NCBI RefSeq assembly: GCF_000004075.3
Contig: NC_026656.2
Location: 13,330,001-13,394,000, forward strand
DNA from: Cucumis sativus
Taxonomy: Eukaryota > Streptophyta > Magnoliopsida > Cucurbitales > Cucurbitaceae
Length of the DNA: 64,000 nt
Direction of reading: 5' to 3'
Part shown: piece after piece, positions 45,302 to 53,006 of the stretch
How the letters are laid out: the number at the start of each line of letters is the position of its first letter
How positions within the stretch are numbered: position 1 is the stretch's first letter
The notes under the pieces: generated by a model
The model's database searches: none
The model's input: the letters and a program-made list of their open reading frames with translations, nothing else
What the model was told of the DNA's origin: nothing
Position numbers and translations under genes: made by a program

Positions 45302-47174
45302 TTAATCAGGTAAGGCAGTTCCTCGCTCAAGATTGTTTTTGATCTCCAGAGTGTATCTACCAAAGGCCCGCTCAATCTTTTTGTTGAAATGCTCATTACG
45401 GTCATTGATGGAATCGATATCCTTGTCTTCATGGAACTTCCTCCTACGGCTAAACGACTTTCGCTTCTCATCTCGGTCTTTGAGTTCTTTCACCATATTG
45501 TCAATCTTATCCTCTGAAATCTTAGGTGCCTGCAGTGTAGAGGGGAAAGCTACATCCTAAGAAATCTAGTAATTGCATCTACGGTCGAGACTGGAAATTA
45601 TACAGTGGAACTAATATTACCTTTCCATACTGAAGACTTGAAGCCTCACGGTAGAACTCAGGATCAGATTCTTTCATTTTATTATATTCCTCAAGGTCAA
45701 TATTTACATTCTTCGTCCTCTTTTTGTATGCATTATACAACGTTTTCTGGTTAAAGACTGTCAAAACAAACGTAGTTTAACCTTTTTGTAATACAAGTGT
45801 TAACATAGTGCAAGAAATAGGTCAAATACAACCAGTTAAGTAAACTTTATACCCAAGCCATCCCCCATCCCTAAAGAAAAGTAATTACATTGGAATATGA
45901 TACAAATCAAAATTAAACCATCAATTTAATTGGCTCTGTACCAGAGAGAAACATGGAGGACTATAGCTATGAAAAACCATACTACATGAATAAGAAAGAA
46001 GATATCAGCAATGGCAAGAGTTCACACCAATTAGTGCAGGAGTATGCATACGTATCCTAGACATCTCACCACATAATATCTATATCCTAGAATCAGATCA
46101 TGTTTCCATCATCAACCAGTATAATAGGGTTCCTTATCAAATTACTAAAAGATGCATCTGTCTATACACACAAAGCTAAAATCAGCATAGTATAATTTTA
46201 TGTCAAAGGGAATTATAGGTGCAGTTGCATGTATTCAAAAGAGCCCATGTGCACAAAAGAATAGAGACTCACCATCCCATCCATAGGGAGCTGGATCCTT
46301 CTCCCATTTCTTATATTTGTTTTCTGCTGCCTCTTGTGTATCTAACATATATGCTTTTGTCATATCCAAGCCATTTGCATCCAAAAGCTTCCCAATTTTC
46401 TTCTTCCGATCCTCAAGCCACTTTTGTTTAGAAATGCCTCTTGATTCTGATGGAGGTTCCATTTTCTTTTTCTCAGCAGCAATTGCTGTTTGATTAGCTT
46501 TCCGAGCCTCATTCTGCATCCACCATTCCTAAGTCAATGACTACTCAATAATAATTGATCGTTATTTTTTAAAAAAATTATAGAAAATTACCATCTTAAG
46601 CCTAATTTCAAACAATTTCTTCTTCCTCCCCGTGAGCTTTGTGAAGTCTCCTTCCACATTTTCCTCGCCACTAAATTTGTCAAGATCACCATCACTGTGC
46701 CCTTCTTCATCAGGCTTTTCATCATGAAGATCTTCATACTCATCAGGAGGCACAAAACTGGAAGAACCACTACTTCGACCAGCTTGTACAGTTTCTGATG
46801 AAGTGGGAACTGTGATCGCAATTCACAAGAAAAAATTAAATGAGAAGGAAAAGGTAACTAATGACATAATCAGAAAACTGAAGGGTGGAGGGAATCAAAG
46901 ACGATTAAGCAATTTATAGAGCCAATTTTGAAGAAGTAAGTAAATCGAAGAGGGCGTTAATAATTCGATAAAAGGGTAAGCAGTGATGACAATTAGAGAA
47001 AGTTATGATGCTCAAGGTAACTGCAAAGACATTGCAGTATGCTACAAAACCTGGCTCGTTTTTCTGACTCCGGGCTTTCAATTCAGCTATTACTTTAAAG
47101 CAGTACTCGCTACATTCATGATAAGGATTAGAAGCATTTCTACAATCAGGGTGTACTCTTCCTTCATCAGACAT
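45302..47174 (-). CDS. SYF2: Pre-mRNA-splicing factor SYF2
   Basis: Predicted component of the Prp19-associated spliceosome complex, nuclear, 315 residues. Five exons on the minus strand: 47174-47051, 46809-46592, 46513-46273, 45757-45621, 45529-45302, all GT-AG and in frame. The SYF2 domain runs from GRKKKLFEIRLKM through SKQKWLEDRKKKIGKLLD, KWEKDPAPYGWD, VFNQKTLYNAYKKRTK, YNKMKESDPEFY, to the basic FSRRRKFHEDKDIDSINDRN tail ending ALPD. Human SYF2 is shorter because it lacks the plant N-terminal extension. That extension starts MSDEGRVHPDC and carries a C11-x7-H19-x-C21-x3-C25 motif around SNPYH, shared with the PEARLI 4 neighbour. An acidic stretch (DEYEDLHDEKPDEEGHSDGD) follows. I recall At2g16860 as the counterpart. 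The leader is probably spliced (exon about 47930-47785). Confidence 0.95.
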
Positions 47175-47824
47175 CTCTGCAACAACTTATCTTACTCCAA
47201 TAATACACTGCAAATAGAGACACAATTAAATGGAGCTCAAAAATCTTATAAAAGGATTATGGGCTCTTAAACCCATAAACAAAACAACCGTAAAAGGGCA
47301 TCATTGAATGCAATGGTCGCATTACATGATCAATCAAACAAGAAAAAAAAAAAACATTCAAATTTCCAACTGAATCTTGTTAAATCAACCGAATTTATCG
47401 AACCAACGCAATTATTCGATGGAAAATTGATTCTTTTACATATGCCTTTATATGTTCCAAAATAAATTCCTGCACCAACTAGAACAATTCAACTTCCGGG
47501 GAAAAGAAGCGAAGAACAGCAACATAACACAGGATTGAGTCCACTAAAACATCCAGAAAAACAGACCCAAAAAGTGGGGGAAACAACAATCCTTTTTATT
47601 GTTCGTATTCCCGGAAAGCGAACAAGCAAGAAAAAAAAACAGAAATAGCAGCATGAAAACAATCGCTACTTCCAGTCAAATCTTGCGATGCAAAACAGAA
47701 ATTCAAGGAAAAGCAAGCATAGGAAACTATGAGAAAAGTAATAAAAGAACGAGTGGTGCTAAAAGAGAGCTACAGAACAGTACCTGAAGCCTAGGTTTTT
47801 CCGCTTGGGTTAGAACACGTAGAA

Positions 47825-47880
47825 GAGGAGGAGGAGGAGGAGGAAGAGGAAGAGGAAGAAGAAGAAGGAGAAGAAGGGAA
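47825..47880 (-). repeat. GAGGA/GAAGA purine tract in SYF2 5' leader
   Basis: About 55 bases of GAG, GAA and GGA triplets on the plus strand, i.e. a CTC/CTT pyrimidine tract in the SYF2 transcript close to its presumed start. CT-rich leaders are common in plant housekeeping genes; length polymorphism is likely. Confidence 0.8.
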
Positions 47881-48186
47881 TAGATTCCTCTTCGCGTTTT
47901 GGGAAGAAGGGAGAAGAATTGCACAAGATCCCTCCCAAAATTATAAATAATTATACTCTTTTCTCTACCACTTCCAAATTAAAGTTTAAGAAAAATCTAT
48001 CAATTTCTTCTCTTTTTCTTTTTTATTTCATGAGAAGAAAAAAAATATTCTTTTTAGTGGTATTATGATCATACCAAAATGAATCAAACTATAAACACAT
48101 CCATAAAAAAGTTATGACCATAGCAAAATGAATCAAACTATAAAAACATTCATATAAATAATTGGTATCTATCATTTTGATAGAAT

Positions 48187-48330
48187 TAGGGGTGCAAGAA
48201 TAAACTATCCAAACCACATTATATGAATGAGTTAGTTTATAACGTGGGTTTAGTTGGGTTTGATTGAAAATTTTGGTCTTTTTTAGGTTGGGTTTTGAAA
48301 AATTAAGTTTAACCCAACCCAAATTAATAT
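48187..48330. mobile_element. Possible hAT-type element terminus
   Basis: Begins AGGGGTGCAAGAAT, the kind of terminal inverted repeat found in plant hAT elements, followed by blocks GGGTTTAGTTGGGTTTG, GGTTGGGTTTTG and AACCCAACCC. A second CCAACCCAACCAACCCG block at 48757-48775 may mark the other end. No transposase is present. Confidence 0.35.
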
Positions 48331-48367
48331 ATATATATACATATACGGAGTTCATATGGAAAATTGG

Positions 48368-48690
48368 AATCTTGGGTCATCTAGTGCAATTAAGGCCATA
48401 GATTGAATAAAATAAAGACAGAATTCTTTTCATTCTAGGCCATCTCAGTATCACTAAGCCCGGAATCCAATAACTAAAGGAATAAGTTTTTCATTTCGAA
48501 CATCCCAAGGTGTCCAAGGTTGAATAAAATAAAGGCAAAATGTTTTCATCTCGATGCCACTAAGACCCGAGATCCTATAACTAAATGAAGAAGTCTTTCA
48601 TCTCGGAGGATTGCATACTCGAAATCAAATGACTTAAAAGGTGAATTCTTTCATCTCGGTGCAACTAAGGTTCGAGATCATGTATCATGA
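48368..48690 (+). repeat. Degenerate minisatellite, about six units of 51-60 bp
   Basis: Units begin near 48368, 48426, 48486, 48542, 48593 and 48646. The best-conserved core is TTTCATCTCGGTGCAACTAA followed by a GGTTCGAGATC-like part and an AACTAAA-like tail. Two units share TTGAATAAAATAAAGRCA. Unit divergence is high, so this is old. It has no open frame. Confidence 0.75.
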
Positions 48691-49846
48691 TCTAGACGAT
48701 CCTTTAAATTTGAAAGTCATCCTAGAAACACAATGCAATCCTACCACAGACCCAATCCAACCCAACCAACCCGAAAATATGAATTGGATTGAAACGAGAA
48801 TTTTTCTATTTTTTACTATTAATATATTGTTTTTTTTGTTAGACAAATTATATTTAAGGTTCATGTACTTGAACCTAAACTTCACCTTTGATAAAATAGT
48901 TTATTGTTGGGTTGTTTTAGAATTATTTTCTATTAACTATTATCATTTTCAAAATAAATTTTGTAAACATATCTATATATTGTGTTATGCATACATTTGG
49001 ACATGAGTGATGAAACCTAAACCAAAAATTCAAAATCTAGAACCCAATTGAGCACAAGGAGAAGAGAGGAAATTTTAACCAAAAGCCCAAAGCTAATATG
49101 CACTACCTAGTCAACCTCCCCATTTGATGAACGAGGCATGCATGGATCCATTTAGGCATACATATCTTAGACATCTCACCATTGGTCAAGCTCAGGTGGA
49201 GTGTTTTTCACTTATTATGTTAAATGGATGGCTTGACCTATTTAGATTAAGAATTAAACTAATATGATCTTAAAACGTTGATTCAAATATCTTAGCTGAA
49301 AATAAGTAAGGTGATGACTAGGTGATTCAAGACGCTTCGAGGTTGACACTAACAAATTGCTTTTCTTTTTGTGCAAAATTTCAAGTTCAAGTGGTTACTG
49401 CTCTCATTTTAAATGAAACGAGCATAGTTAATATAATTCATAATATCAAATGCTAAATTTTAGCCAAGGGTAAATGTGAACATCAATAAAGGAAAGCTTA
49501 TAAGGTAGAAGAAATCTTTCCATTTTGTAATTTCTATGTCTAAAAACCATTATTGATCAAGTTCCTAATATCTTTAAAAAAATCACTTATCTAATAGATA
49601 TTCAAAGTTAAGAGTCTCACCAGTTAAATTTCCAACTCTACACAGAAATAAAAGGAAAAATAGAATGGAAAAACGGCAAAAACAAAATATATGCAAGAAC
49701 TAACTGCCATGAAAGCTCAAAACTTGTTATTCGTTACATCTTTTTGTATGATAGTATTTCTGTTCTAGCTTCCCTAAGAGTTAGCCTCGTAGGAGGTTTC
49801 ATATGATCTTTAAATGACAGCAAATCATAAATCAGTACCACAAACT

Positions 49847-52800
49847 TTACAAAAGATCATCAGTCAAGTCGTTGCATTTTAAACCATTAACCTTAAACTG
49901 CAGAGATGAAATCTCCTTGTTCAGCTGTAAATATTTGGACTCAAGCTCACTCAAGCGAGCTCTGGTACCGGCAACTTTTGCCTTCGCATCATTCATTTCC
50001 TTTTCTTTTCTTGTCAAATCCTGTGTTTGAGATTCGAGTTCATTCTTGATGAGCTCCAACTCGTGGTCACAATTTGCCTTGGCCACCTCCAGAGTAAATT
50101 GTTGGCCACTGGATTCAACAGCTTCTGCAATATCATTTAGTATACTATGCAGCCAACCAACATTCATTCCTGAAGACACTACATCATTGAGAATGGCCAA
50201 GAGTTCTTTAACTTTGGACTTGGACACCTTCTGAGAGAATTTTGTGTGCTGCAATTCATGAATGATATAGCACACACACTCCAGATAATAAGAACGAATC
50301 GAAATTGATTCCAATTTACATGAAGCAGCTATATCTCCATGCTTATTGAAGATCGATTGCAGAATGGGAGCTAAACTTAATTTAACGTGGTACTTCCCCA
50401 CAGGTACATAGGGCTCAGATGATACAGATTTAACGTCGTTCTCGTCACTTCCTTTTTGATTAGGAGCCATTGTGGGGAAAGGAAAGCTAGTGATATTAGG
50501 TGAAGTAGTTTTATGATTACCTTCTTCCTCCTCATGAACTGAAGGATCTTCATCTTGTACTAATTCAGAAATTTCAGAACTTTTAGTGATGTGTTCTTTT
50601 GATTTCACAGAAGTAATTGAGTAAGTCTCAGTTTTGTGGAGCTTCTGGAGATTATTAGCCTCAACCTGCCATGTAAGACAAAGAAAATATGTAAAGTGGG
50701 ATTTAAATTAGTTATGAAAAAGGTAAACAAAGTTAAGTGTTGTCCTGTGTGTATGAAAAGCTAAGGGACCTTCAGGGCATTTGCAGAAACTAGAATCAAC
50801 TTAGAAAACTTATTTTGCTCCTCAATCGTCAAAGAGTCTTCAACAAAGTGAGTTCTTTCCTCTGGGGGAACAGATGTTTTAGAACTCTCTGGGGGAACAC
50901 ATGTTTTAGTTACTTGAGGTTTGGATGAAACAGCACTTGCCAAAGGATCACTGAGTTTTCGGGGCGATTTTGGCAGTGAATCCCTCCTTGCTCCACCTGA
51001 TCCTACAGCTGAAAAATGCATCAGCAGATTCAGATATAGACTGACATTCTTAAAATGTCGCCTAAAAATGCTACGTATTGTCATCATCGTCGATCTTAAT
51101 AGGTTTGAGTTTCGTTTCAATTTGGTCCCTAGGTTTTAAGATTTACAATTTTAACCTTGATTTTTTGCTAAAGACTGAAAGTGAGTATTTAGTGAAAATT
51201 TAAGGTTAAAAATGTAAATCTTGAACTTAGGGACCAAACTGAAACCTCAAGGGTAAAGTTCGTAATATTTTGAAACTTAGGAACTAAGTTGAAATCAAAC
51301 CCAAAACTTAAGGACTAAAAGTAGAAAATTCTAAATCCTAGAGACCAAAGAAATGTTTTTTTTTTTTTTCTATAATAACAGATCACTTTTGGTATTAGTG
51401 CCTTTGGAAGAAAAGCTAATTTGAAGTGTGTATAATATAACTTTTGTTAGTTAATTTTAGATAACTAAAACCACTTTTTAATCAAATCTAGATGCATAAA
51501 AGAACACTTGTAAAATAATTTCAGAACTCTTTTCAGAGAAACACAAGATGATTATCCAAAAATGACTTCTCAACGTGATTTACCAAATATCTTTAAAATA
51601 TGCAGTAAGAAAAAACATTTGTAGTTAAGAAAACCACTTTTGAATGTAATGTATCTAAACAAGTTTGCCACTAAAAGCACTGTTAAAAATATACAGCAAT
51701 TAAAAGATTTTTCTTAAAAGTACTTTAAGAAAAAATTCTTAAACCAGAGAGTATGCTAAACAGAACCTTAATCTCTCAAACTTCTATGACCAGTAAAAGA
51801 ATTGTTACTTGGCTATCAAATCTGCATTACTTTCCTACACTGTTTGTGATTATCATGATTTAACAAGGTTCTTTTTCTTAAGAAAAACATAGCTAAGCCA
51901 AGGAAAAATACCTGAACCCCTTTCTGCTTTTGGCCTACCAGATTGAGTGGTCATGTTGGAGCAGAATTCATCACAGTTATGGTAAGGATTAGATCCCCTA
52001 GTGCAATCTGAACGAACTGTCTTTTTACGTTCGCTACTAAATTTCCAAGCACTATCGCCTTCATAAATTGGGATGGAGACAAAGAAATAATATACACTTC
52101 AGTCATACTTGATGGAAATCAATTTACACAACGCATAAAAATGAATCTTTTAAGATATTCAATGATTAAGTCATTTGTCTTGGAACAAAATATGTTCAAA
52201 ATGTAGGAACAAGACATCTCGCGAAAATTCCAAGTCAAGTTGTCAGTTGATTTTAATGGTTGATATAAAAAAGATGGATAAAAGAAATCATATGTGAATA
52301 TTTGGTTAATAGCTTTAATATATATTACATTTATGCCAACCTAAGCTCAACCAATCCAAGAAAATACCCTCAACCAAGAGATCAACCACCCCAGATGTTG
52401 TTGAACTAAAAAAAAATATTCAGAAACCTAAGTTTGAATTATCTACATTTAGATTGCCAAAAAGTGAATGATAAAAGCTAGCATGTAAGATAAAAAATGA
52501 GCTCAAGAAGTTATGTAACTTAGGGGATTAGAAAATTTGTTGCTGCAATAAGCACTCATTTATCAAACACTGTGTCGACTTCTTAACAACTTAAATCTAA
52601 CCCAGCAGTCAAATGTTACAAGGGTCAGAAACAAAGCGAGACAGTTATAACTCATATTTGATGAAAATATGAGGAATCAGATGTCCCATTCATTGAAAAT
52701 CTGAACCAACCTACTTAGAAACCATCTTAAATCCCAATTTACCCAAATGCTTAAGTTTAATATAATTATACCATCTAACAGTTGACAAAGTCTAATGGAT

Positions 52801-53006
52801 ATCAGTTTTGGGAAAAGTTATCAACTCATATTTGAAAATTAGCCGACATTGCATGAATGAATGAAGAGTAAAGTTAAAGAACCTGAATCCTTCCTAACTA
52901 TCTGCTTCTTGCTTTCACCCTTCTTTTCAAAACAGTACTCAGAGCAAACATGGTAGGGATTGGAAGCATGTGAACAATCTAATCTTCCATTCCCTTTTCC
53001 AGCCAT
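49847..53006 (-). CDS. PEARLI 4 (phospholipase-like) family protein with two N-terminal Cys/His motifs
   Basis: Protein of 442 residues in four exons on the minus strand: 53006-52883, 52058-51912, 51008-50770, 50665-49847, all GT-AG and in frame. Exon 1 encodes C11-x7-H19-x-C21-x3-C25 (LDCSHASNPYHVCSEYC) and exon 2 a second copy at C60-x7-H68-x-C70-x3-C74 (SDCTRGSNPYHNCDEFC). A Ser/Pro-rich, low-complexity middle follows. The PEARLI 4 domain covers about 258-360, with VPVGKYHVKLSLAPILQSIF, HGDIAASCKLESISIRSYYL and GMNVGWLHSILNDIAEAV. A C-terminal coiled coil covers about 360-435. Despite the family name, no catalytic phospholipase motif is visible and the function is unknown. The spaced Cys/His residues suggest metal binding (inference). 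I recall At2g16900 and At4g35110 as positional counterparts. It is head-to-tail with SYF2 on the same strand. Confidence 0.88.
51099..51258. mobile_element. Fold-back MITE-like element in PEARLI 4 intron 2
   Basis: The left arm reads TTTCAATTTGGTCCCTAGG then AAGATTTACAATTTTAACCTT. The right arm contains AAGGTTAAAAATGTAAATCTT then TAGGGACCAAACTGAAACC, the near-exact reverse complement over about 50 bases. The short loop and lack of coding sequence fit a MITE. Confidence 0.75.

Follow-up and report, generated by a model that had tools for sequence, protein, structure and literature searches.

A shared exon-encoded Cys/His module at the start of the spliceosome factor SYF2 and the PEARLI-4 proteins of cucumber

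The first coding exons of the cucumber SYF2 gene and of both cucumber PEARLI-4 genes encode the same small cysteine/histidine module, spaced C-x7-H-x-C-x3-C. Our preferred explanation, to which we give a probability of about 0.6, is that this is an old plant module, carried on a first coding exon, that heads these two families and is probably a small metal-held docking element. The module would consist of a core of about 16 residues, D-C-x3-S-N-P-[YF]-H-x-C-x-[DE]-[YF]-C, plus the helix predicted to follow it.

The module and the genes that carry it

The DNA analysed (the window) is a 64,000-nucleotide stretch of cucumber contig C2, and the genome searched comprises 226.6 Mb in 88 contigs. Gene models were spliced from the DNA letters, with splice sites as read from the sequence. 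Read along the minus strand, PEARLI4-A (53006-49847) comes first and SYF2 (47174-45302) next; the two are immediate neighbors in the same orientation, and about 2.7 kb separates the PEARLI4-A stop from the SYF2 ATG. The relevant features are as follows (window coordinates, except for the last):

52883..53006, minus strand: PEARLI4-A first coding exon, 124 nt, ends in phase 1, then GT; module copy 1 (C11, H19, C21, C25)
51912..52058, minus strand: PEARLI4-A exon 2, 147 nt, AG/GT, phase 1-1; module copy 2 (C60, H68, C70, C74)
49847..51008, minus strand: PEARLI4-A exons 3 and 4 (51008-50770, 50665-49847), middle region, PEARLI-4 domain (PF05278) and C-terminal long helix
47051..47174, minus strand: SYF2 first coding exon, 124 nt, ends in phase 1, then GT; module C11-x7-H19-x-C21-x3-C25
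45302..46809, minus strand: SYF2 exons 2-5 (46809-46592, 46513-46273, 45757-45621, 45529-45302), acidic linker and SYF2 domain (PF08231)
L012 8719-8596 (contig C7): PEARLI4-B first coding exon, 124 nt, ends in phase 1; module C11, H19, C21, C25

The spliced SYF2 coding sequence (948 nt) is an open frame of 315 amino acids and that of PEARLI4-A an open frame of 442 amino acids. SYF2 belongs to PF08231 (E=3.3e-37; 128.6 bits, Pfam cut-off 23.5), and PEARLI4-A (E=4.4e-61; 206.9 bits) and PEARLI4-B (218.4 bits) belong to PF05278 (Pfam cut-off 29.9). No Pfam domain above cut-off is common to SYF2 and PEARLI4-A, and the best PF05278 stretch starts at residue 203 in PEARLI4-A and residue 191 in PEARLI4-B, far from the module.

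The sequence-only reading had proposed that the two neighbouring genes open with a 124-nt, phase-1 coding exon, and this is borne out (47174-47051 and 53006-52883, each one base over whole codons and with GT after it). The pattern it gave for residues 10-26, D-C-x3-S-N-P-Y-H-x-C-S-E-Y-C-F, can be read in both translations, and the second copy that it placed on PEARLI4-A exon 2 is indeed there. First exons of 124 nt, ending in phase 1 and with identical residue numbers, are found in 3/3 carrier genes, as is expected of a shared exon module, and the fourth copy sits on the internal 147-nt exon of PEARLI4-A, a gene in which the module occurs twice, on consecutive exons. In all three carrier genes an AG resembling a splice acceptor also lies no more than about 35 nt 5' of the ATG, consistent with a 5'UTR intron and hence with a mobile exon. 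From an exon-shuffling viewpoint, PEARLI4-A exon 2 is symmetric (1-1), and each first exon is followed by a phase-1 intron and preceded by a likely 5'UTR intron, which is a prediction.

How far has the module spread through the genome? Four protein queries (the modules of SYF2, PEARLI4-B and PEARLI4-A copy 2, plus the 25-residue core of the SYF2 module; E up to 10) all found the same four places in three genes and no others among the best candidates, which are the ones scored, so a strongly diverged copy may escape. The carriers are the single SYF2 gene and both PF05278 genes found in the genome, the second of which, PEARLI4-B, lies on contig C7, unlinked to the window. The possibility, raised in the sequence-only reading, that the motif is common in unlinked genes was thus checked in cucumber: it is not common, with four copies in three genes among the best-scoring candidates. 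No further copies rose above chance in the window or the C7 segment, and a module relative was confirmed in 0/61 pattern matches in viral contigs and 0/52 in prokaryotic contigs.

Several repeats lie in and between the two window genes. The second intron of PEARLI4-A contains an inverted repeat (51135-51225; arms of 42 nt, 83% complementary) that may be the remnant of a small mobile element. A 29-nt repeat (90% identical) occurs in a SYF2 intron (46043-46071) and in the spacer between the genes (49153-49181), and the spacer also holds degenerate short repeats at 48063-48158 and 48400-48684.

Comparison with known domains and a putative metal site

The module matched no model in Pfam or NCBIfam. 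The domain and C-terminus of cucumber SYF2 match the SYF2/NTC31/p29 Pfam model (PF08231) and solved spliceosomal SYF2 chains, and 6/6 solved SYF2-like chains (PDB, E up to 0.001) align from cucumber residue 75 or later, leaving the module uncovered: alignment begins at residue 101 or later in the five chains named SYF2 and at residue 75 in 8xi2_M, a cyclophilin-fused SYF2 chain. Because these chains, which we take to be from human, worm, fission yeast and a green alga, all align downstream of it, the module has so far been seen solely in plants. Both cucumber PEARLI-4 proteins match their own family model well over its cut-off, with the module outside the matched stretch.

The module resembles short zinc fingers in having few residues, four Cys/His ligand-like positions and, by prediction, probably one zinc. 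The spacing of CCHC zinc knuckles is C-x2-C-x4-H-x4-C and that of CCCH zinc fingers is C-x7-8-C-x5-C-x3-H, whereas 4/4 copies of the module have C-x7-H-x-C-x3-C and therefore fall into neither class; we know of no solved zinc finger with such spacing. Among the matches listed for SYF2 and PEARLI-4 in the literature, titles and abstract openings contained no description of the module, and the motif strings matched one paper, on a legume proteome. The motif at the N-terminus may be visible in a survey of plant SYF2 proteins (Tian et al. 2019, Planta 249:583, cited in PMC9479762). We class the segment as a small Cys/His module that is as yet uncatalogued.

Only D10, C11, S15, N16, P17, H19, C21 and C25 are invariant in the four cucumber copies, which otherwise diverge (29-49% identity to the first copy). 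In the one non-cucumber SYF2 compared, a legume protein printed in full in a mixed bean/soybean EST set (PMC4039509), the module is present at the same residue numbers and is identical to that of cucumber SYF2 at 32/41 positions (78%), compared with 21/59 (36%) in the acidic linker and 183/215 (85%) in the rest of the protein; this suggests that the module in SYF2 is under selection. The pattern of invariance is the one expected of a small fold that is built around a metal and presents a conserved contact surface. Most likely the four putative ligands bind a single metal ion, probably zinc, and so pin a loop onto the start of a helix, with C21 and C25 one helical turn apart and H19 and C11 closing the metal site; the resulting surface would be a docking patch, not an enzyme.

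AlphaFold2 gave a low-confidence model of the module (mean pLDDT 62.7, pTM 0.34, with 3 sequences in the alignment) that is mostly one helix (residues 17 to 38), preceded by a short one at residues 9-12. Foldseek found no fold match to this model, and PDB sequence and profile searches with the module returned nothing believable, the one weak match being an antifungal peptide (E=0.57). PEARLI4-A exon 4 modelled alone from its single sequence (mean pLDDT 54.8, pTM 0.30) had the long C-terminal helix as its sole confident part.

Could the segment have no metal site at all, and be redox-sensitive or purely peptide-binding, with its conserved residues touching a partner directly? The S-N-P core is as invariant as the Cys and His residues, and a model that is mostly one helix, though of low confidence, would suit such a segment; on the other hand, three Cys and one His retained in four copies as divergent as these are the usual mark of a metal site. 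We consider a metal-free segment unlikely, although it is an alternative to be taken seriously.

Age and origin of the shared exon

The likeness among the modules is far above chance. SYF2 exon 1 and PEARLI4-A exon 1 match with E=6.0e-6 genome-wide and E=2e-12 pairwise, genome-wide module E-values are as low as 5.9e-8, and 0/100,000 shuffles matched the observed score for each of four module pairs. Nucleotide identity across the module exons is 72/124 to 81/124. Over 41 aligned residues SYF2 and PEARLI4-B share 20 identities, SYF2 and PEARLI4-A 18, and PEARLI4-A and PEARLI4-B 18, and PEARLI4-A copy 2 shares 11 to 14 with the other three cucumber copies. The SYF2 module was nearer to PEARLI4-A than to PEARLI4-B in 23% of bootstraps, and PEARLI4-A was nearer to SYF2 than to PEARLI4-B in 44%, so these three modules are about equidistant. 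PEARLI4-A exon 2 was closest to PEARLI4-A exon 1 in 55% of bootstraps, so this second copy may have originated within PEARLI4-A or may have been present earlier and disappeared from PEARLI4-B.

The two PEARLI-4 genes themselves lie in colinear segments: a bZIP gene, a RING protein gene, a DsbD-like protein gene and PEARLI-4 occur in the same order and on the same strand in the window (11885-50449) and on C7 (904012-972885, within about 904 to 975 kb). This four-gene colinearity indicates that PEARLI4-A and PEARLI4-B are copies from a segmental duplication, which was probably a whole-genome duplication. No SYF2 relic, which would have placed the linkage before the duplication, was found in the C7 segment, where the best protein match (E=0.75) has a chance-like alignment; the single SYF2 gene was either lost from C7 or arrived on C2 later.

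Since the legume SYF2 has the module, SYF2 carried it before the cucumber line and the legumes split, and in bootstraps the cucumber SYF2 module was closer to that of the legume than to PEARLI4-A in 99.99%. The sharing is therefore old, given also that PEARLI4-B, although unlinked, carries this exon too and lies equally close to SYF2. A recent exon exchange between SYF2 and PEARLI4-A was considered and was rejected on the module distances and the legume sequence. One family would have acquired the module from the other through duplication or capture of the exon, earlier than the cucumber line/legume split and at or before the split between PEARLI4-A and PEARLI4-B; the mode is our reconstruction, and either family may have been the donor.

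Spread of the exon between adjacent genes had been proposed from the window alone. Of that proposal, a homologous and seemingly movable exon heading two otherwise unrelated families, with a second copy within one of them, holds up; spread specific to these neighbours is not supported, as the unlinked PEARLI4-B is equally close and legume SYF2 has the module. Put as a rival explanation, the proposal is that the exon was copied because SYF2 and PEARLI4-A are next to each other, either in cucumber or in an ancestor not long ago. Their position, adjacent on one strand and about 2.7 kb apart, favors it: with three carriers and what we take to be roughly 24,000 cucumber genes, we estimate (post hoc) that adjacency would arise by chance about 2 times in 10,000, so an ancient linkage is possible, and the 44% bootstrap value leaves PEARLI4-A nearly equidistant from SYF2 and its own duplicate. 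Against it are the 23% value for SYF2 being nearer to PEARLI4-A than to PEARLI4-B, the module already in legume SYF2, and the introns 1 and 5' flanks, where no similarity outside the module exons stood out (largest other match 26.8 bits). Nor do the locus numbers show adjacency in Arabidopsis, where SYF2 is At2g16860 and the PEARLI-4 genes are At2g20950, At2g20960 and At4g38550; assuming ten locus numbers per gene, they put the genes about 400 genes apart. Copying between neighbors is on balance rather unlikely. Separate origins in SYF2 and PEARLI-4 of a short motif, serving in nuclear targeting, as a redox switch or as a degron, are very improbable, for although the motif has few residues and convergence of cysteines and histidines around metals is frequent, exon length, phase and numbering are all identical and the nucleotide identities and E-values are those given above.

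Two other genes of these segments may be mentioned. The bZIP gene of the window (PF07716, 11843-12757, plus strand) encodes an N-terminus with two His/Cys-rich runs (HACTHAHTCNPPGPDYSHTHTCFHVHT), resembling those of the Arabidopsis F-group factors bZIP19/23, which sense zinc; the copy of this gene on C7 shows 85% identity to it across 171 residues. A gene named from its sequence as a PIP-type aquaporin (L012 1500-2730) lies about 3 kb from PEARLI4-B, and a counterpart is absent among the window matches listed.

Possible partners and function

An old module at the head of both families raises the possibility that they could dock, through it, on one nuclear partner. An Arabidopsis survey places SYF2 among spliceosome proteins as GCIP p29/Syf2, and PEARLI-4 proteins are entered as nuclear in two proteome tables (under the code NU, which we read in this sense, or as Nucleus). 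One of these tables is from a membrane phosphoproteome, which speaks against a role confined to the nucleus. PMC4202796 tabulates phosphopeptides of three PEARLI-4 proteins (AT4G38550, AT2G20960 and AT2G20950) following MAPK activation, and AT4G38550 phosphopeptides are listed in PMC5727051 as well. PEARLI-4, a poorly understood family of stress proteins, recurs in such phosphoproteome studies, although the passages of the literature consulted name no biochemical role for it; the homology of its module with that of a spliceosome factor is a concrete, testable lead to its binding partners. The module likewise suggests that the conserved N-terminus of SYF2 in plants, which is absent from the solved SYF2 chains, has a use.

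A more specific proposal would be that the module represents a plant docking domain, zinc-dependent and not described before, that exactly two families use, and that PEARLI-4 proteins, which are reported to be phosphoproteins responsive to MAP kinases, either recruit SYF2 or compete with it at a single receptor, linking stress signaling to the catalytic spliceosome. We regard this as quite improbable in its full form. The table in the MKK1/MKK2 proximity-labeling interactor section of PMC10951710 includes Arabidopsis SYF2, which fits such a link without testing it.

A passage in a paper on animal SYF2 describes plant SYF2 transcripts that give an N-terminally truncated protein (PMC9479762); if the truncation is at the start, these forms would lack the module, which may thus be dispensable in some forms. 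Finally, the rice cyclophilin OsCYP20-2 is reported to be bound by OsSYF2 (PMC7483694), and the PDB chain 8xi2_M, named a cyclophilin-type PPIase, contains a SYF2 domain. Together these make a cyclophilin one candidate partner, although any tie to the module would be conjectural.
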